Origin: a virus
Length of the DNA stretch: 30,645 nucleotides
Strand: one strand, 5' to 3'
IMG/VR virus record: IMGVR_UViG_3300035701_007228
Span: 1 to 30,645 of that record
Shown: in pieces, positions 4,035 through 29,267 of the stretch
Position numbering within the stretch: the first letter of the stretch is position 1
Layout: every line of letters starts with the position of its first letter
Translations under genes and position numbers: made by a program
Notes under the pieces: model-generated
What the model saw: the letters and a program-made list of their open reading frames with translations, nothing else
The model's database searches: none
What the model was told of the DNA's origin: nothing

Positions 4035-4063
4035 ATCTTGCCCTCCCCAACCCTTCCTTTAAT

Positions 4064-4160
4064 CCCCCAAGCAAGGGGCCTAATCTCCCCCAGGACGAGT
4101 TATTATTACTCTCCCCTTATAAGTCCCTTACCCTAACCCCTGAACTCGTTAAATGGGGAG
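4064..4160 (-). repeat. CTTATAAG intergenic repeat, copy 1
   Basis: A 97-bp unit. Positions 4093-4145 match copy 2 (about 18815-18867) exactly for over 50 bases, including CCCCTTATAAGTCCC. Short inverted arms ACGAGTT/AACTCGT bracket the centre, and an outer CCCCCAAGCAAGGGG palindrome lies at the left. It fills the gap between the clamp-loader stop and the small KIYLAG gene. Confidence 0.75.
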
Positions 4161-4169
4161 GTTTGGAGT

Positions 4170-5102
4170 TCACTGTGTAACTGCCATATAACAGGATAAC
4201 GACAAACCCGCTTTTCCTACATACATGTAACTTTCACAAAAATACGTTATTGTCTTCGCTGTCCGATCATCCCCTCTATTCAAGAGAACTGAATTCAGAT
4301 ACCCTAAAACTGCGTACCGAATACTTTCTGGCTCTCCAGTCAACCCTTTCAGAATAGTAGACACTTCTGCCCAGGTAGCCCGACCTCCAACCAAAGCCCT
4401 GCACAAATCCAGGACTTTAACGTCATCAACGGTGCAATCTATGATCGCTTGCATTGCTATGTCAGGGTCCACAATATCAATAATCTGATCCAACATGACC
4501 AGGGCTTGACGAGGGGATCCATTACACGAATCGGCAATCTTAATCAAAATCGGGGAATCAATCTCCACCCCTTCCTTCCCACAAACATCTCTTAACAATT
4601 TCATCTGGCTATGACGGGGAAGGGCTGAAACCTCAAACCGGGAACACCGGGTCTTAATAGTCGTAATTAACTTCTCAGGGTCCGTGGTGCAAAGAATAAA
4701 GAACACATGGGACGGAGTATCCTCCAGCAACTTCAGCAGGGCGGCTTGCCCGTCTGGGGTAATTTTGTGACATTCGTCGAGAAGGTAAATCTTTATTCCA
4801 CCCGAGAAAGCTGCGTACTGACAACCTGACCCAATGTCCCGAATAGTATCAATTCCCCTAACATTCGCTGAATTATACTCATAGAAGTCTTGGTCGGGGC
4901 ATTCCAGATGACTCTTCATAATTCGGGCCAAAGTAGTTTTTCCACACCCAGACGGACCCGTAAACAGAAATGATCTCGGCATGTCTTCGAGCTTTCGACC
5001 TAACATCATTCGGAGGGCGTTTACTACCGACTCATTTCCTACCACTTCGTCCCATTCTTTCGGTCTATACTTTAGATGCAGAGCACCTCTTTGCTCAGTC
5101 AT
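4170..5102 (-). CDS. Clamp loader ATPase (T4 gp44 / DnaX-like)
   Basis: A 310-residue AAA+ protein. Walker A is GPSGCGKT at residues 49-56, Walker B LLDECH around 107-112, a sensor-1 region FFILCTTDPEKL follows, then the TRCSRF motif (151-156) that supplies the SRC arginine finger. The N-terminal KYRPKEWDEVVGNESV box is typical of DnaX, RFC and gp44. It would load the sliding clamp encoded at 7655-8764 onto primed DNA for the polymerase next to it. It is shorter than cellular DnaX, with no zinc module and no tau extension. It overlaps the polymerase gene by 8 bases. Confidence 0.9.
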   Translation of the reverse strand: MTEQRGALHLKYRPKEWDEVVGNESVVNALRMMLGRKLEDMPRSFLFTGPSGCGKTTLARIMKSHLECPDQDFYEYNSANVRGIDTIRDIGSGCQYAAFSGGIKIYLLDECHKITPDGQAALLKLLEDTPSHVFFILCTTDPEKLITTIKTRCSRFEVSALPRHSQMKLLRDVCGKEGVEIDSPILIKIADSCNGSPRQALVMLDQIIDIVDPDIAMQAIIDCTVDDVKVLDLCRALVGGRATWAEVSTILKGLTGEPESIRYAVLGYLNSVLLNRGDDRTAKTITYFCESYMYVGKAGLSLSCYMAVTQ

Positions 5103-14550: not shown

Positions 14551-15270
14551 TTAGTACTCCTGCCCTACTCTGGCCGCTGGCCATATATATTTGTGGATCT
14601 GAAGGTTCAGAGCAAAATGCCATGCTCGATTATTCTGAACCCACTTAACTACCTCCGCCGGACCCCACCCAGGAATTCCCATGACCGGACTCAGAGCAAA
14701 GCGAGCTTGACATCTCTCCATTAGTTTCTCAGCCCAGAACATTGCCTCTCCACACTCACTTTCGGAACCTACTATAAATTTGACCCAGTCAAACTTCCTC
14801 AGCCCTTCATACCTATCAATCTGTCTCAGCTGTTCTGTCGGCCTTCCCGAGGACGCCATTTTCCAGTCAACTACCCATGACCCAACCTCTTTCCGAAAAT
14901 ATTCCTGAAGACCCCAACCAACACGGGGAAGGTCAACAAGCCCACTGGTTTCAACGGAAACACTAAATATTAAACCCCCCAATCGTTTGATTAGCTCCAC
15001 GAACCCATCCATCTGAAGTAAGGGCTCTCCCCCGGTTATTGTTATCCTCGGACATCCTATTCGCTGAATCTCTTGTACAATTTCCTCCGCCGTCATTTCC
15101 TTAACCAAAGGGGCATCCATTCGTTGGCTCCAAGGAGTGTCACATAGAATGCAATATGGAGAAACACACCCGGCGAAACGAATAAATGTAGTGGGCGTGC
15201 CTTGTCCCCAACGATTTACCTCACCATCAATAGAATTGAATATGCCAACCACTCTGACCTTCTCACTCAT
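14551..15270 (-). CDS. queE: 7-carboxy-7-deazaguanine synthase (radical SAM)
   Basis: A 239-residue QueE. FIRFAGC...YCILCDT carries the cluster cysteines (35, 40, 43), spaced CX4CX2C rather than the more usual CX3CX2C. TITGGEPLLQ binds SAM, VSVETSG follows, VVDWK is the substrate and Mg region, and NLQIHKYIWP ends it. It converts CPH4 to 7-carboxy-7-deazaguanine in preQ0 synthesis. It overlaps the preceding zinc-protein gene by four bases (ATGA), so they are coupled. Confidence 0.9.
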   Translation of the reverse strand: MSEKVRVVGIFNSIDGEVNRWGQGTPTTFIRFAGCVSPYCILCDTPWSQRMDAPLVKEMTAEEIVQEIQRIGCPRITITGGEPLLQMDGFVELIKRLGGLIFSVSVETSGLVDLPRVGWGLQEYFRKEVGSWVVDWKMASSGRPTEQLRQIDRYEGLRKFDWVKFIVGSESECGEAMFWAEKLMERCQARFALSPVMGIPGWGPAEVVKWVQNNRAWHFALNLQIHKYIWPAARVGQEY

Positions 15271-15847: not shown

Positions 15848-15988
15848 TCATCCGTCCAGGGATTCACATTTTACCTCCGCCATACACATATCGCATCTTT
15901 CCGACCCACCCTTGGTAGTGCACTCATCCCTACCGTCATTCTCTTCCAAGAGAATTCGGCCACACGCACAGCAGACCCACTGAATCAT
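15848..15988 (-). CDS. 46-residue zinc-finger-like protein
   Basis: A short frame, MIQWVCCACGRILLEENDGR, then CTTKGGSERCDMCMAEV. The CxxC pairs (CCAC, CDMC) suggest a small zinc ribbon. The ATG overlaps the TGA of the HNH-QueD gene (ATGA), a usual sign of coupled translation. Function unknown. It was found by reading the gap between the two annotated neighbours. Confidence 0.6.
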   Translation of the reverse strand: MIQWVCCACGRILLEENDGRDECTTKGGSERCDMCMAEVKCESLDG

Positions 15989-16935
15989 TCTTCCGCCCGC
16001 CACGTAGCAAAGGATTCAATGTTATCTGACAACACCGACAACATTCCTTCCTTCGTTAAGGATGCCTCACTTGTAGGAGTTTCCCATAAGTCAATCCTCT
16101 CTATCCCTTTCAAATGGGCATCAAACATCAACACCTCCCACACTCTAATTAAGATGTTCTCCGCAGTAGGATTATCAATGTAGTCGTTCAGATAAGAGTG
16201 GTCAAGTGATGATATAACATATTCATTCACAACATTCTTCAGAACGGAAAAATCAAGGACCATGCCGGTTTTCTTATCCACTCTCTTCTTAATAGACACC
16301 ACTAATGACCATTCGTGCCCATGCAAATCACTGCAAGACCCCTCATAATCAGGTAATCTATGAGCGGCAGCAAAAGAGAATATTTTCCCTATCGTAATGA
16401 ATGGCTGTTTTTGCAAGGAGTAATGAAAGTGGCCATGACAACCAACACAAAGGGGCTCAAGATTCGAGGGAAGAAAATTACTACTATCTTCATCAATATG
16501 ATGAACATTTATTTTCTTACCCGACCCACATCTTCTACACACTGTAATGTCCTCGTACTGAGATAAAAACTCTTTGTACTGATTTTTAGCCAAAAACAAA
16601 GGGGTGTGATTTTCAGGTTTGAACAGGGGACTTAATGCCCCCCTCATCCCTACCATTCCATTTATCCGTTTCTCATACACCCCTTCGTCCCAACGAGACT
16701 TGACTGCTTTGGAAATCCTCTCTCTCACATCCTTTCTCTTTGTCGCGTTCCCCTCCCCTCTGTTAAAACGGGACGCCCCACCAAATTTCAATCCATATTC
16801 CCTTACTTTCTCGTTGAGGTACGTAAGACTTTTGCGTCCAAGTTTATCTGCTATCTGCCTCTGAGTCAACCCTTCTTCTATATACTTTTGTAGCTCACTC
16901 TTGGTAACTTGCAAAAGAATCTTTCTACTCACCAT
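15985..16935 (-). CDS. queD: HNH homing-endonuclease-like protein fused in frame to QueD
   Basis: A 316-residue continuous frame. Residues 11-48 are a helix-turn-helix (LTQRQIADKLGRKS). Residues 68-92 resemble a NUMOD-type DNA-binding segment. Residues 133-171 are an HNH motif (CRRCG, NVHHIDED, LCVGCHGHFH). Residues 183-295 are a complete QueD: FSFAAAHRLP (His192), CSDLHGH (Cys201, His205, His207), MVLDF, SLDHSYLND (Asp245/His246), NPTAEN and ETPTS. QueD makes CPH4 from dihydroneopterin triphosphate. AAAGGAG before ATG 16935 sets the start. I see no ribosome site or start codon for a free QueD, so it is probably made as a fusion. A second QueD N-terminus lies immediately upstream. Confidence 0.88.
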   Translation of the reverse strand: MVSRKILLQVTKSELQKYIEEGLTQRQIADKLGRKSLTYLNEKVREYGLKFGGASRFNRGEGNATKRKDVRERISKAVKSRWDEGVYEKRINGMVGMRGALSPLFKPENHTPLFLAKNQYKEFLSQYEDITVCRRCGSGKKINVHHIDEDSSNFLPSNLEPLCVGCHGHFHYSLQKQPFITIGKIFSFAAAHRLPDYEGSCSDLHGHEWSLVVSIKKRVDKKTGMVLDFSVLKNVVNEYVISSLDHSYLNDYIDNPTAENILIRVWEVLMFDAHLKGIERIDLWETPTSEASLTKEGMLSVLSDNIESFATWRAEE

Positions 16936-17008
16936 ATGTCTCCTTTCCCTCATGCTCTGGCAACCGATGAGCGTATTCAAATCGAAAGATCCTTGTCACT
17001 GTTAACAC
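16925..17008 (-). pseudogene. queD: Truncated QueD N-terminus ahead of the HNH insertion
   Basis: A 27-codon frame with a strong ribosome site (GAGGAGG, then GTG): (M)LTVTRIFRFEYAHRLPEHEG, then KETYGE and stop. This is the opening strand and AHRLP zinc-ligand motif of QueD, matching GKIFSFAAAHRLPDYEG in the downstream fusion. It stops just inside the HNH gene, overlapping that start. It is read as the original queD 5' end, left behind when an endonuclease gene inserted and was joined to a full-length QueD. The two DNA copies differ at many synonymous positions. Confidence 0.75.
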
Positions 17009-17019
17009 TATTGCCTCCT

Positions 17020-17097
17020 CTACCACATCTTTGATAGAAACGTAACCACAAAGAACAGCACAACAAACAGAGTTATCAAGCACCAGGCTTTCTGCAT
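17020..17097 (-). CDS. 25-residue membrane peptide
   Basis: MQKAWCLITLFVVLFFVVTF followed by LSKMW: a single membrane helix with almost nothing else. AGGAGG lies four bases before the ATG and promoter P3 just upstream, so expression is likely. It is the first gene of the queD operon. Function unknown; such peptides are easily missed in annotation. Confidence 0.6.
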   Translation of the reverse strand: MQKAWCLITLFVVLFFVVTFLSKMW

Positions 17098-17113
17098 CTT
17101 CCCTCCTACTCCT

Positions 17114-17133
17114 ATTATAGCCCCTTTTCTCCC
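17114..17133 (-). promoter_or_regulatory. Promoter-like motif P3
   Basis: Minus strand: GGGAGAAAAGGGGCTATAATAGG. The -10 TATAAT (17114-17119) follows the purine box directly. It would start the transcript of the membrane peptide, queD and queE. Confidence 0.6.
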
Positions 17134-17139
17134 AATCCC

Positions 17140-18720
17140 CTACTCAACTTCCTCTTCCCGACCCCTAATCCTCTTGGCCCACGTAGAAGAGAAGTTCAGC
17201 CACTCAGAATCCAAAATCATACTGCACACATCCAACTGCTGTAAAACCAAACATTCCCGACCCGTATCGAACTCATCCTCTCGTTTCTTTACCATTCCCA
17301 TACGGGCCACCAGAGAGCGCTTCTCCCCTTCCAACTGGTTTATCGTAATCAAATCATCCACATGCTGCGGAATGCCCCAATTGTCCGCTACATCAATCTG
17401 GGCAAGGCTCCGTCTCGTGGCACCTCTTCTGTTAGACTGAGTGGGCGCCAAGACTACGCAGTGTTTTACCCCGCTCAAAACTTTCATGCGCTGCCAGATA
17501 TCGTCCAGACGTTCTCGACGATCATCTGACTTGAATTCGGATGCCATAATCGCGGGGTAATCCACAATGAGAACATCAGTGACAAAACCATCATCCTCCA
17601 AGCAATTCATATAATTTTCTACTTGGGTCAAAGTAAGCCGGGCTTGGCACAAGATATGCAACCGACCCTTCAATCCTCCGTAGTGAATTTCAGATCCACG
17701 TAAAAACTGTTGAATGGAAATCTTATCCACCTTCTGGACTTTTTTCTCATACCACCATAACCCCGGATCGAAGTCCCCTCTGACTTCCTCCCTACAAGCA
17801 GTGCACGGGACATACCGAGAATTCGAGTAGAAGCTGGAGATATTTGTGGGAGTCCCCTTCAGCTTTATGGTATTTCTTCTTCGATCCAACGAACAACTAT
17901 TTGTCTGATTCCCCTGACAATCAAAAATCGGATAAAGTAACGTCTCTCCTTTCTGGAAAGTAGGTTTCACCCTGCCCGTAAGCCTACGATAAAACCTCAT
18001 ACCCAGCAACCGCTCCCCCATCTCCAAGGAGAAGTACAAGACATTCAATCCTTTCGTGGCTGCTACCATCCCCAACTCCTGCACAATAAAACTCTTACCC
18101 CTACCTGTTGCCCCCATCACCCCGACCAGAGTATTCCGCAACAAAGGTCCGACCATCTCCCCTACTGCCCCCGGAAGAGAAAATAGTTCGTCCCCTACCC
18201 GACCCTCCTCCGACAGCAATCTATCCACAGTATCTGAATCAAACAAATCTACTACAGGCAGAGAGCGTCTTTCAATTTGCCGATATTCCAGGGTAGCCTG
18301 TTCCGCCTCATCTGCTTTGCCCTCAGACAGCAGCACCTCTATTTGATCCTTCAGAATACCAAGAGACCGCTCCTTGACGAAATTTATCGTCTGGTCGAGA
18401 AGATATTCAGCATTGAAAGATTCCGCCCGCTCATACTCGGAGGATAGTCGAGCCAGGAAGTCCTCAGTCAGACTGATGATCTCCGGGGTCATCCGCTTCT
18501 TATGCTGCTCGTATAGATCCTGAATATGACGACCAGGAGCTACTTTATACTTTCTAAAATACTGTAAGCACCAGCGCGCTACCGGGCGACAATGCTCCGC
18601 TTGGAAATGTTCCAGGGAAATAAGCTGAGTCGCCTGTTTGGAATAGTTTGTAGAAACGATCAAGCCTGTCAGTACTTTTTCTTCCATCCTATTGTCTATG
18701 CGACGACGAGTAATTTGCAA
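17140..18720 (-). CDS. Replicative DNA helicase, DnaB-like, with inserted cysteine-rich segment
   Basis: A 526-residue RecA-fold helicase. The N-terminal 150 residues are a DnaB-type collar domain. Walker A GATGRGKS is at 203-210, YFSLEMGERLLGMRFYRR matches DnaB motif 1a, VLIVDYPAIM is Walker B, and APTQSNRRGA follows. Between motifs lies an unusual segment of about 80 residues with cysteines (FDCQGNQTNSC, PCTACREEV) that may bind zinc. It would unwind DNA ahead of the fork with the primase at 22365-23285. TTG is the start, because AGGAG sits six bases upstream and no ATG fits. Confidence 0.85.
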   Translation of the reverse strand: MQITRRRIDNRMEEKVLTGLIVSTNYSKQATQLISLEHFQAEHCRPVARWCLQYFRKYKVAPGRHIQDLYEQHKKRMTPEIISLTEDFLARLSSEYERAESFNAEYLLDQTINFVKERSLGILKDQIEVLLSEGKADEAEQATLEYRQIERRSLPVVDLFDSDTVDRLLSEEGRVGDELFSLPGAVGEMVGPLLRNTLVGVMGATGRGKSFIVQELGMVAATKGLNVLYFSLEMGERLLGMRFYRRLTGRVKPTFQKGETLLYPIFDCQGNQTNSCSLDRRRNTIKLKGTPTNISSFYSNSRYVPCTACREEVRGDFDPGLWWYEKKVQKVDKISIQQFLRGSEIHYGGLKGRLHILCQARLTLTQVENYMNCLEDDGFVTDVLIVDYPAIMASEFKSDDRRERLDDIWQRMKVLSGVKHCVVLAPTQSNRRGATRRSLAQIDVADNWGIPQHVDDLITINQLEGEKRSLVARMGMVKKREDEFDTGRECLVLQQLDVCSMILDSEWLNFSSTWAKRIRGREEEVE

Positions 18721-18750: not shown

Positions 18751-18786
18751 CCAAAGAGGAATTTCCCTCCCCAACCCTCTCCTTAA

Positions 18787-18883
18787 CCCCTCCTTAAAGG
18801 GGCCTAACGACCCCAAGGACGAGTTATTATTACTCTCCCCTTATAAGTCCCTTACCCTAACCCCTGAACATGTTAAATGGGGT
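18787..18883 (-). repeat. CTTATAAG intergenic repeat, copy 2
   Basis: Nearly identical to copy 1 for about 80 bases (AGGACGAGTTATTATTACTC, then CCCCTTATAAGTCCC), with the right arm changed to ACATGTT. It lies between the end of the initiator gene and the helicase promoter. Confidence 0.75.
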
Positions 18884-18907
18884 GTTTTGGAGTTTTACCA
18901 ATTACCA

Positions 18908-20590
18908 TCAATCATACTCCTCTGCTTCCTCTGTCCCATAGCCCAACATATAATCCAGTTGATCTTTAGGCTTGCCCTGTCGATCCTTGGGTGTTCTCAC
19001 CACCTTGATGTCAAATGCTCTTGGAACCCGCAACTCCCACGTATAACTCGTACACAGCCAGGCAGGCGTAAATACATGTCCCGTCTCCTTTTCATCCTGG
19101 CGTATAGCATGAAAAACGCTATCCACTAACTCATCCGGGGACGACCACCCCTTGATAAAGCAATAGCGCATGAAAAACTTTACCAACCTCTCTGCTCCCA
19201 AGCGACAGCAGTTAATGTCTTTGTTAGATAGTTCCTCCTCCTTCTTCTTGCGCTTATCACAGAATGCAAGGAACCGAGCAGAGATATCTGGAAACTTGTC
19301 CTCGATAAGAGGGACCCCTTTATAGGACAATTCTGCAGGAGCTTTCAAATATCTTAGAAATAGACTTGCTATCTCTCCCTCCCACCGGGGATTGTAAAAA
19401 AAGTTACACAAAGAAGTTCCACGATAGGTCTTCTTCAGGGAACCGGTCGGAGAGTAGGACTCATCCAGAGCAGCCAGGGAAAACTCGTACATAGATTGAC
19501 AGATCTCTTCCGGGGTAAACACCTTACTGTTTAACTCGGGCAGCTTAGAACAGACAAACTCCCCTGATAGGAGATGTCGTATGGCTTTAGCTGACTGGGC
19601 AAATACATTAGTGGATGGTTTATGATGAACAAGACCTAAACCATTCCAGTGGTCAACGATCTGCTGAACAATAGGAGATACCCGAATAGGAGATCTTTCC
19701 TTTCTATGGGAGGGTAGACCATTCTTACGAAGAGACTCTCGGGGCGATAGGTCTTCTTTCATAGGAGCACTGCCTTTCTGAAGATCTAAACGTTTTGATA
19801 AAGGACCACCACCTGGTGGTCCTTCTCCCTGCTGCTTTCCTAAGCAGCAGGCATTACCCTTATTACTATCATTATACTTTATATCATTAGACTTTATATC
19901 ATTAGACTTTATATCATTAGACTTTATATCATTATACTTTATATCATTATACTTTATATCATTAGACTTTATATCATTAGACTTTATATCATTAGACTTT
20001 ATATCATTAGACTTTATATCATTACTCTTCTCTTGTTGTTTTGTGAAATCCTTATACTTTTCTTTCTTAAGAAAAGGATCTCCTATTCTTATAGGATTCT
20101 TATCTCCTTCTCCTATTCTTATAGGATTCTTAATACCTAAGGTTATCCCCTTATAAGGGAAGGACCTTATAAGGACATAGACATCTATGCTGTTATCTTC
20201 TGGACCCAGGCAATCTTTGAACGATTGCATATGTGTCTCTTCGTCTATCCAGCGGCATAAAAATAAATCAGACCCTATTACCCATCCAGACTTGTCTTTC
20301 TTCCTTTGGTACTCTATAAGCCCCAACCATCTTAGCATGCGCATAATTTTAGTAACGGTAACCTGATCCAATCCAGAATAGGCTGTACAAGTTTGGGTAA
20401 GGTTTCGAAGTTGACTATTACTACTGAATCTTCGTTCACTAAAGTCAGAGTCTATCTCGCAAAGCGCAAAATAGACATCCCGAAACCTACGATTCCATTT
20501 CTTCTCAAAAACTTTTCTAAAGAACCTCGGTATCCTTTTATCAGCCCATAGATGGGCAACATCCCTGTGGCGCTCGCTTACCTTCTCCAT
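18908..20590 (-). CDS. Winged-helix replication initiator-like protein with internal repeats
   Basis: A 560-residue protein. Residues 1-120 contain a winged-helix-like region (RNLTQTCTAYSGLDQVTVTKI, then MRMLRWLGLIEYQRKK). The middle is low complexity: two KNPIRIG repeats, about ten SNDIK/YNDIK pentapeptides and a PPGGGP stretch. The C-terminal 250 residues are helical, with no motif I can name. Phage initiators such as lambda O have an N-terminal DNA-binding domain and carry the origin inside the gene. The DNA repeats here fit that pattern (inference). Its neighbour at 20598 has a related winged helix. It sits just upstream of the helicase gene. Confidence 0.6.
   Translation of the reverse strand: MEKVSERHRDVAHLWADKRIPRFFRKVFEKKWNRRFRDVYFALCEIDSDFSERRFSSNSQLRNLTQTCTAYSGLDQVTVTKIMRMLRWLGLIEYQRKKDKSGWVIGSDLFLCRWIDEETHMQSFKDCLGPEDNSIDVYVLIRSFPYKGITLGIKNPIRIGEGDKNPIRIGDPFLKKEKYKDFTKQQEKSNDIKSNDIKSNDIKSNDIKSNDIKYNDIKYNDIKSNDIKSNDIKSNDIKYNDSNKGNACCLGKQQGEGPPGGGPLSKRLDLQKGSAPMKEDLSPRESLRKNGLPSHRKERSPIRVSPIVQQIVDHWNGLGLVHHKPSTNVFAQSAKAIRHLLSGEFVCSKLPELNSKVFTPEEICQSMYEFSLAALDESYSPTGSLKKTYRGTSLCNFFYNPRWEGEIASLFLRYLKAPAELSYKGVPLIEDKFPDISARFLAFCDKRKKKEEELSNKDINCCRLGAERLVKFFMRYCFIKGWSSPDELVDSVFHAIRQDEKETGHVFTPAWLCTSYTWELRVPRAFDIKVVRTPKDRQGKPKDQLDYMLGYGTEEAEEYD
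19801..19851. repeat. Two adjacent perfect hairpins beside the iterons
   Basis: AAGGACCACC-ACCT-GGTGGTCCTT (19801-19824) and CCTGCTGCTT-TCCT-AAGCAGCAGG (19828-19851), each with a 10-bp perfect stem and a 4-base loop, separated by three bases. They lie within the initiator coding sequence. Confidence 0.85.
19868..20017. repeat. Ten 15-bp AT-rich iterons (candidate replication origin)
   Basis: The unit ATCATTAGACTTTAT (or ATCATTATACTTTAT) repeats ten times with no spacers, then a partial copy ends near 20025. It encodes the (S/Y)NDIK pentapeptides. Beside it lie two perfect hairpins, a 24-bp direct repeat (20079-20102 and 20109-20132) and CTTATAAG palindromes. Iterons inside an initiator gene are a known form of phage origin, so this is the best origin candidate in the window. 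Confidence 0.65.
20079..20174. repeat. 24-bp direct repeat and CCTTATAAGG palindromes
   Basis: TCTCCTATTCTTATAGGATT is part of a 24-bp unit at 20079-20102 and again at 20109-20132; each holds a CCTAT/ATAGG inverted repeat. CCCTTATAAGGG (20148-20159) and CCTTATAAGG (20165-20174) follow. The same CTTATAAG core is at the centre of intergenic repeats 1 to 4. Confidence 0.75.
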
Positions 20591-21979: not shown

Positions 21980-22007
21980 AATTGCCCCCTAACCCTACCC
22001 TAAACTA

Positions 22008-22122
22008 CCCCAAGCAAGGGGTCAAATCTCCCCCAGGACACGTTTTCTTTCCTATCCCCTTATAAGTCCATTACCTTCCCCACTAAACATGTCCTGGGGG
22101 AGATTAGACCCCTTGCTTGGGG
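22008..22122 (-). repeat. CTTATAAG intergenic repeat, copy 3, with long inverted arms
   Basis: Arms of about 38 bases, 22008-22046 and 22085-22122, are almost perfect reverse complements (CCCCAAGCAAGGGGTC at the left end, GACCCCTTGCTTGGGG at the right). They flank a centre containing CCCCTTATAAGTCC. This copy shows both halves of the family complete. It lies after the 22153-22368 gene. Confidence 0.8.
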
Positions 22123-26477: not shown

Positions 26478-27128
26478 GTGGTTGATACGAATTCAAGTTG
26501 GTTATTCCAGGACCCAGGCAAAGTTTCTCCAGAAGCTCGAAGAGACGGAAGAAGAAAATCTGTAGAATCTGGCACTGACAGAGAAGATACAGCAACATCT
26601 GATGCGCCCTATGTAGTTTACGCCCTACTTGACCCGAGAGACAGAACACCATTTTATGTAGGTCAAGGCGATCAAGTTCGACCGCGGTCAAGTTCGAAGG
26701 AGGAAAACAATACTCTAAGAGGCCAACGAATTTCAGAGCTTTACTACCTCAGTTTAGAACCCACAATCAAACTTCTTGAAGAGTGTTCAACTCAAAAAGA
26801 GTCGTGGGAATGGGAAATGTTTTGGATTGACTTTATTGGCAGAAAGGATCTCGGTAAGGGTCCCCTTCTAAACATGTCAGATGGTGGGAATGGTGTAGGG
26901 AAAAATAGATCCAAGGACCTTAATCCTAAGAAAAGAACTGAATCCAAAGGAATATTCACCGCCACCTACTTGCCCGAAGAGGTGTTTAATAAGTTAAAAG
27001 TACAGGCTAAGAAAGAAGGCCGCTTCGTATCCGGACAAATTCGGCACTACATTTTGCAAGGTTTACAAGGGTTTTCAAGCCTACAACACCCCGTAAGGGC
27101 ACATAAAAAAATATCCTTGTTTTATTAA
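26478..27128 (+). CDS. GIY-YIG endonuclease with a C-terminal RHH-like domain
   Basis: A 216-residue protein. The GIY-YIG fold is seen at VVYALLDPRDRTPFYVGQG (residues about 46-65), followed by an Arg/Glu helix region with a conserved Glu near residue 114 and LLNMSDGGNG. Such nucleases include phage homing endonucleases. The last 65 residues (GIFTATYLPEEVFNKL, then AKKEGRFVSGQIR) match the stand-alone 56-residue protein at 28754, a small RHH/CopG-like domain likely to bind DNA. The start is a GTG with AGGAA just upstream; other starts are not convincing. Confidence 0.7.
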   Translation: MVDTNSSWLFQDPGKVSPEARRDGRRKSVESGTDREDTATSDAPYVVYALLDPRDRTPFYVGQGDQVRPRSSSKEENNTLRGQRISELYYLSLEPTIKLLEECSTQKESWEWEMFWIDFIGRKDLGKGPLLNMSDGGNGVGKNRSKDLNPKKRTESKGIFTATYLPEEVFNKLKVQAKKEGRFVSGQIRHYILQGLQGFSSLQHPVRAHKKISLFY

Positions 27129-28932: not shown

Positions 28933-29196
28933 ATGGCCAAGCCGGATTTCACAACGGGGACAGGAGCATTTGATTCCGTCACGGAAATGAACTTGGAAGA
29001 AGGCAGACTACTCAGACAGAAGGATAGACTGAACTACGGCGACCTAACAGGGGTGCGCCTAACACTTGGAGGAGAGATGTTTCACCTTTCCAAGGACCCG
29101 AGGGATCGCCGAGCAGCCCTGGAACGGTTCAACAAAGCAACCCAGAACACGCAAGGGAACCCCAAAACTCCCCCTTTAACGAGTTCACAGGGGTAG
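28933..29196 (+). CDS. Small hypothetical protein
   Basis: An 87-residue protein starting MAKPDFTTGTGAFDSV. It contains LEEGRLLRQKDRLNYGDLTG and a hydrophilic C-terminus. No family recognised. The ATG at 28933 has AGGAGA just upstream and follows the 28754 gene; an earlier ATG at 28897 lies inside that gene. The last plus-strand gene before the terminator. Confidence 0.6.
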   Translation: MAKPDFTTGTGAFDSVTEMNLEEGRLLRQKDRLNYGDLTGVRLTLGGEMFHLSKDPRDRRAALERFNKATQNTQGNPKTPPLTSSQG

Positions 29197-29267
29197 GTAA
29201 GGGACTTATAAGGGGTAAGGAGCAACAACTCGTCCTGGGGGAGATTAGACCCCTTTAAGGAGGGGAA
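29169..29267 (+). repeat. CTTATAAG intergenic repeat, copy 4 (plus orientation)
   Basis: GAGTTCACAGGGGTAGGTAA, then GGGACTTATAAGGGG, then ACTCGTCCTGGGGGAGATTA matches copies 1 to 3 in reverse orientation. It overlaps the 3' end of the 28933-29196 gene. As with copies 1 to 3 it lies downstream of a gene and in that gene's sense. Confidence 0.75.

Follow-up and report, generated by a model that had tools for sequence, protein, structure and literature searches.

An HNH endonuclease gene joined to a complete QueD as a probable mobile unit that replaces the phage queD it interrupts

Results

Genes and features of the queD locus

The window, meaning the whole stretch of DNA analyzed here, is a 30,645-base IMG/VR virus record (IMGVR_UViG_3300035701_007228, positions 1 to 30,645). 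The minus strand of this phage carries replication genes and a 7-deazaguanine gene set, which includes FolE, QueC, and a DpdA-like transglycosylase (phrog_887, E 6e-47). The features of the queD region, from upstream to downstream, were as follows.

17140..18720, minus strand: DnaB-like helicase (phrog_19, E 7.8e-39; Pfam DnaB_C)
17014..17020, minus strand: Shine-Dalgarno-like GAGGAGG of the resident queD start (from the sequence)
16925..17008, minus strand: resident queD remnant, a 27-codon ORF, MLTVTRIFRFEYAHRLPEHEGKETYGE and stop (GTG at 17008 to TAG at 16925)
16940..16946, minus strand: AAAGGAG inside the resident remnant, a possible ribosome site of HNH-QueD (from the sequence)
15985..16935, minus strand: HNH-QueD fusion gene, the whole inserted unit (one continuous frame of 316 aa)
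16756..16935, minus strand: putative DNA-binding module, HTH-like, residues 1-60 (HTH_3, weak, E 0.15)
16420..16539, minus strand: HNH nuclease core, residues 133-172, with CxxC, HH, N, CxxCH, and H (Pfam, PHROG, alignment)
15988..16416, minus strand: linker and complete QueD domain, residues 174-316 (Pfam, TIGR03367, fold matches)
14551..15270, minus strand: QueE, downstream of HNH-QueD in the same operon-like run (profile matches)

The helicase upstream of HNH-QueD is conserved as the left neighbour of queD in several relatives. The same HNH-QueD arrangement was found in a second IMG/VR contig, the near-twin 3300035688_000470, which is 99.96% identical over 7 kb. An assembly artefact was ruled out by this near-twin and by the independent occurrence of the same structure in contigs L007 and L018.

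In two other contigs, L004 and L005 (2848-3300), the helicase and QueE are 99% identical to those of the window, and the whole queD region (window 17020-15985) is absent. The gap is clean, with a small membrane-type ORF on one side and the next gene on the other, and neither DpdA nor QueC was found in these fragments of about 20 kb. Therefore, the presence of queD as a whole gene varies within the phage group of the window. L004 and L005 were dropped as candidate empty sites because queD is wholly absent from them, which makes them uninformative on the insertion point.

Three further features were observed elsewhere in the window. A dispersed repeat of about 133 nt (4038-4170, 18762-18894, 21981-22113, and 29158-29265) is mostly intergenic, 65-87% alike, and present in both orientations; its copies are possibly promoter or replication signals. 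A 15-nt tandem repeat, TATCATTAGACTTTA, occurs in about 10 copies at 19867-20031 within a replication-type ORF (18908-20590, minus strand), where it encodes a repeated NDIKS motif. A second candidate homing-type gene lies at 26478-27128 on the plus strand, with a ribbon-helix-helix domain, the only part that Pfam scored, and a GIY-YIG-like stretch recognized by eye (YVVYALLDPRDRTPFYVGQG); PHROG gave a weak homing-endonuclease match.

Anatomy of the HNH-QueD fusion gene

The earlier note on this DNA had read 15985-16935 as one continuous HNH and QueD protein with a complete set of QueD residues, and both claims hold. The minus-strand frame of 316 aa is uninterrupted. The zinc and catalytic residues H192, C201, H205, H207, D245, H246, and E285 are present, and the six named earlier, from H192 to H246, are conserved throughout the fusion family. 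A NUMOD-like segment had also been proposed; it gave no Pfam NUMOD match and is simply a block conserved in the family.

The N-terminal module of the window shares 9-22% identity with that of its relatives, whose module is zinc-finger or ROS/MucR-like, with a ROS_MUCR match in L007 and L014. The HNH domain of the window (residues 133-171) scored 19.5 bits in Pfam, just below the cut-off of 21.4, and matched several PHROG HNH families. The HNH domain of L018 exceeded the Pfam cut-off at 25.3.

The PTPS/QueD domain spans residues 182-295 (Pfam PF01242, E 1.8e-28), and the fused QueD scored 89.5 bits against TIGR03367 QueD at a cut-off of 89.25. The AlphaFold2 model of the fusion had a mean pLDDT of 80.9, and the QueD half was above 80 and mostly above 90. 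Its best fold matches were the QueD/PTPS structures 2oba and 4ntk, at a TM-score (target) of 0.85-0.90. Structure 4ntk is E. coli QueD (6-carboxytetrahydropterin synthase). The fused QueD is predicted to fold like the E. coli enzyme and has the same catalytic residues. It differs in carrying an N-terminal nuclease of about 175 residues, and its CPH4 synthase activity is putative. An internal start for a free QueD was considered and dropped, as inspection by eye of the region ahead of the second QueD copy revealed no conserved start codon accompanied by a ribosome site.

A resident queD remnant upstream of the fusion

The short ORF upstream of the fusion is resident-like through HEGK (to about 16943), after which it continues with non-QueD codons and stops. 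Its stop lies 11 nt within the HNH gene, overlapping the HNH start in a different frame. Against a profile of the QueD N-terminus, the remnant scored 31.4 bits and the best of 2,800 shuffled upstream stretches scored 9.8 (0/2,800 as high), so the remnant is not a chance match. This score bears out the earlier proposal of a second QueD start behind GAGGAGG that ends inside the HNH gene. Translation of the stub and of the fusion is probably coupled, since AAAGGAG is well spaced and the stub stop overlaps the start of the fusion.

The window remnant and its own fused QueD copy share 11/21 residues (by eye) and 30/54 nt. The repeated segment had been described as differing at synonymous positions. 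Such differences are present, but the protein differs as well; thus, the copies represent two separate QueD lineages rather than a duplicate recoded at silent sites. The remnant matched the intact queD of L030 at 39/54 nt, compared to 30/54 for its own fused copy. Judged by these matches, it derives from a different, resident queD of the L030 type. A DNA pattern encoding FExAHxLP[EQ]HEG matched only three contigs in IMG/VR, namely the near-twin of the window, L007, and L030.

Here a QueD start is followed by intervening DNA that encodes an HNH nuclease, as is the case for many introns and inteins, and the earlier note had proposed looking for RNA splicing. On this reading, splicing or translational bypass would produce QueD from the stub and the fusion, which would belong to an intron, intein, or bypass element. 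We regard this as scarcely credible. Splicing was not borne out: no Rfam intron was found at the gathering threshold in the whole window or by E-value in 15900-17150, where only chance matches far below the cut-off appeared, and the fusion alone encodes a complete QueD. A group I intron was rejected, as no conserved intron RNA core was matched in Rfam. An intein was rejected as well, given that the remnant and HNH frames differ (in the window, L007, and L018) and that QueD is complete without the remnant. QueD is already whole in the second copy, the conserved N-terminus of which belongs to another lineage.

The fusion family in other phage contigs

The same HNH-QueD fusion was detected in 12 further IMG/VR contigs (L007, L011, L014, L015, L016, and L018-L024), giving 13 with the window, all of them metagenomic. 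The HNH and zinc residues are kept in 13/13 fusions, with two Cys swapped for His in L023, and the QueD residues are likewise kept in 13/13. The surroundings of the fusion are different in L016, L021, and L023, where genes named by eye as topoisomerase-like and UvsW-like lie nearby. No relative turned up in scans of bacterial and archaeal genomes, and among the annotated phages of INPHARED none matched the HNH part together with QueD. The family displays traits of homing endonucleases: an HNH motif with zinc cysteines and sporadic presence, with interrupted and uninterrupted queD genes.

In two relatives, the nuclease is lost or dead. L026 retains the zinc-finger module and QueD and has no HNH domain; in L050, the frame is intact, the HNH histidines are lost (HHIDE to TFVDG, CxxCH to CVSCR), and QueD is intact. 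Therefore, QueD can outlive the nuclease.

These two contigs bear on a domesticated two-part enzyme, in which the nuclease cooperates with base synthesis, for example by attacking DNA without 7-deazaguanine, and the fusion is kept for that purpose. Conservation of the fusion across distant phages with intact HNH residues fits such an enzyme, and many fusion records also carry DpdA and QueC. However, QueD is kept in L026, which has no nuclease, and in L050, where the nuclease is dead; L025 and L030, related phages that share the pathway, have a free-standing QueD; the DNA-binding module varies; and the remnants of resident genes point to insertion. We consider this explanation very unlikely. 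The earlier idea that the fusion keeps nuclease and base synthesis together found no support in the comparison with L026 and L050, which keep QueD without a working nuclease.

Other genes of these contigs also appear to carry inserts. The QueE of L007 (4312-6024) contains an apparent HNH intein, and the upstream helicase frame of L007 (102-1661) starts within an intein-like stretch (both by eye); several genes of the L007 queD region thus carry inserts. In-frame inserts are also suggested by split matches, to QueC within a single 757-aa frame of the L030 contig (18609-19754) and to DpdA within a single 646-aa frame of the L015 contig (38949-40679). A DpdA match in L007 (27237-27803) reads through two TGA codons.

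Resident and uninterrupted queD genes

The earlier note had set the absence of uninterrupted alleles as grounds against an insertion; such alleles were found in L025 and L030. The queD of L030, MITITRRFHFEAAHLLPEHEGKCKCLHGHSY..., lies about 1.2 kb downstream of a helicase that is 30% identical to that of the window. A free-standing queD in L027 (184-575) has an apparent one-base frameshift in an A run just before the HGH codons, apparently a sequencing error or a broken gene.

L018 carries, in order, a remnant, HNH-QueD, and a complete resident queD. Its remnant and resident queD share 65/66 nt, which indicates that the inserted unit is discrete and that its arrival in L018 looks recent. The persistence of the whole resident gene indicates that insertion need not remove the resident queD. 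The resident queD of L018 (4576-5025) carries Ala at the position where CxxxHGH should have its catalytic Cys (SYTEQAQKVHGH), and by this substitution it may be inactive or belong to a different subfamily.

Remnants in relatives and the insertion point

Remnants were also found in three relatives. In L007, the remnant MISITRIFTFEAAHYLPQHEGDCHDRM, ending at its stop, lies before and overlaps the start of the HNH gene of that contig. In L018, the remnant MHLVSKTFSFCAAHMLVTSYTEARIKLMGIL ends at a stop that overlaps the HNH start as ATGA; its profile score is aided by the resident queD of the same contig being in the profile, and the nucleotide match stands independently. In L015, a resident-type start is in frame with the fusion, MKASITNVIKFETAHQLTDSYSEE, and scored 8.3 bits, with 4/2,800 shuffles as high. 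For 8/13 fusions, no remnant was detectable by the QueD N-terminus profile against shuffles. Possible in-frame vestiges in L011 (VTRKLETG) and L022 (MLTIT) were dropped, as they scored no better than shuffles.

The stub stop overlaps the HNH start by about 1-12 nt in the window, L007, and L018, which resembles the T4 nrdA/mobE overlap (PMC2988022). Such an overlap would fit a stub retained as a leader ORF for translational coupling with the fusion; alternatively, the stub may be neutral. Both roles are compatible with insertion into a resident queD. However, the stub is not required, because most fusions are without one, and we assign this reading only a slim chance.

The insertion point was compared in four sequences. 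With positions numbered by eye from the HGH codons, the resident sequence stops at about -5 in both the window and L015, at -6 in L018, and between -4 and -1 in L007. Two of the resident queD types that received the insert are clearly different, and a third is probable. The joints in these different types fall within one to four codons of each other, before the conserved CxxxHGH. The joints point to at least two independent insertions at nearly the same point of queD, two being secure and a third likely; the secure count stops at two because a single event could account for both the window and L007. The window and L007 have different DNA-binding modules despite their common insertion point.

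QueD tree and mobility of the unit

In the QueD-domain tree, which has moderate support and several long branches, the 13 fusions and L026 fall on one side of a branch (91/88), and both residents and all free-standing QueDs fall on the opposite side. The AU test for the 13 fusions excluding L026 gave p 0.13, which is compatible with L026 lying inside or outside the group of fusions. The earlier note had left open whether an HNH gene that invaded queD became fused to a copy or brought its own. The invasion is supported, and the tree and remnant types favour a unit that brought its own QueD. Replacement of the N-terminus only, with a resident QueD body, is disfavoured by the tree and by the separate complete resident gene of L018.

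Distances in HNH are correlated with those in QueD (Mantel r 0.54, p 0.018), which is what joint travel of the two halves would produce. Between the window and L007, identity is 72% for HNH and 68% for QueD, compared to 30% for the helicase, 30% for QueE, and 50% for FolE. Mean identity over 21 fusion pairs was 59.5% for QueD versus 23.2% for the helicase, and over 36 fusion pairs it was 52% for QueD versus 35% for FolE. Since QueD identity (52-60%) exceeds that of the neighbouring genes (23-35%), the HNH-QueD unit travels on its own. Slower evolution of QueD could be behind part of this gap. Rate alone is inadequate, because the FolE ranking is reversed for QueD: the phage closest to the window by FolE, L025 (59%), has a free-standing QueD at 48%.

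Movement of an old HNH-QueD fusion by general or illegitimate recombination, with remnants as joint scars and no site-specific homing, is another way to account for these patterns. Phage modules exchange freely, the nuclease activity is presumed, and the fusions of L016, L021, and L023 sit in other gene settings; the position of the left joint near the gene start could also reflect selection for a usable internal ribosome site. However, joints in different resident types fall within one to four codons in a gene of about 130 codons, before a conserved motif, and the HNH residues are kept in 13/13 fusions, as expected of a nuclease under selection. Ordinary recombination is therefore unlikely in our assessment.

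Discussion

We consider it probable that a mobile HNH gene carrying a complete, divergent QueD inserts into resident queD genes and supplies the function that it breaks. In the mobile unit, a homing-type HNH endonuclease gene would be followed in frame by a complete QueD that belongs to a lineage of its own. The nuclease half would recognize resident queD near the conserved CxxxHGH codons and cut it, and repair would then copy in the whole unit. Insertion just before these codons would break the resident gene and leave its first ~22 codons as a short ORF, the stop of which would overlap the start of the inserted gene. The fused QueD would supply the lost preQ0 synthesis step, so insertion would cost the phage little. 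Because its sequence at the site is divergent, the fused copy should escape cutting, a plausible form of protection that the earlier note had also raised. The states observed in support of this explanation are the fusion, the remnant, the family, uninterrupted queD, the L018 tandem, transfer independent of neighbouring genes, and decay of the nuclease with QueD kept.

The best reading of HNH-QueD among known systems is as a phage, N-terminal counterpart of the fungal mitochondrial "gene hybrids". Mobile ORFs in the atp6, atp9, cox2, and nad3 genes of Allomyces and Glomus mitochondria import a replacement C-terminus, which makes the genes hybrids (PMC3630166). Both systems combine an endonuclease ORF within a gene and a divergent replacement of the displaced segment, and in both the displaced native remnant is closer to uninterrupted relatives than to the imported copy. 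The fungal elements are of LAGLIDADG or GIY-YIG type, reside in mitochondria, and replace the C-terminus, whereas the phage HNH unit displaces the N-terminus and brings a whole QueD behind the nuclease. For these last two reasons, HNH-QueD is a counterpart and not a member of the gene hybrids.

Phage homing genes cluster near essential genes (PMC10448857). The T4 mob endonucleases enter or flank nucleotide genes with overlapping stop-start signals and carry no replacement (PMC2988022). HNH-QueD resembles the mob/seg elements in being an HNH gene in or near phage nucleotide-metabolism genes, with a start that overlaps the upstream stop and with variable presence; in the mob/seg cases, unlike HNH-QueD, a split gene functions as two polypeptides, or else the endonuclease is intergenic. 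Like HNH-QueD, HNH inteins and group I introns of phage genes put an HNH nuclease at a conserved motif within a conserved gene. HNH-QueD differs from them in having no self-splicing part, and a second copy restores the gene in place of removal of the insert. Searches of open-access papers yielded no report of HNH-QueD fusions.

In synthetic home-and-rescue gene drives (PMC7968924), an engineered Cas9 cuts a gene and the insert carries a divergent, uncut version that restores it. By analogy only, the proposed logic is common to HNH-QueD, whose cutting and homing are presumed. We tentatively suggest, at somewhat less than even confidence, that HNH-QueD may be a natural drive of this kind. The HNH nuclease would cut the queD of co-infecting phages and insert a cleavage-immune enzyme, possibly starving rivals of protective 7-deazaguanine; after fixation, the nuclease would decay and the enzyme would stay.

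The finding suggests how an endonuclease gene could persist within a useful phage gene with neither intron nor intein, namely by bringing along a complete, divergent copy of the gene that it disrupts. In such phages, genes annotated as HNH or as QueD may be both. The relatives, with queD uninterrupted, newly inserted, with the remnant kept, with the remnant gone, and with the nuclease dead, form a ready series on how selfish genes become ordinary enzymes.
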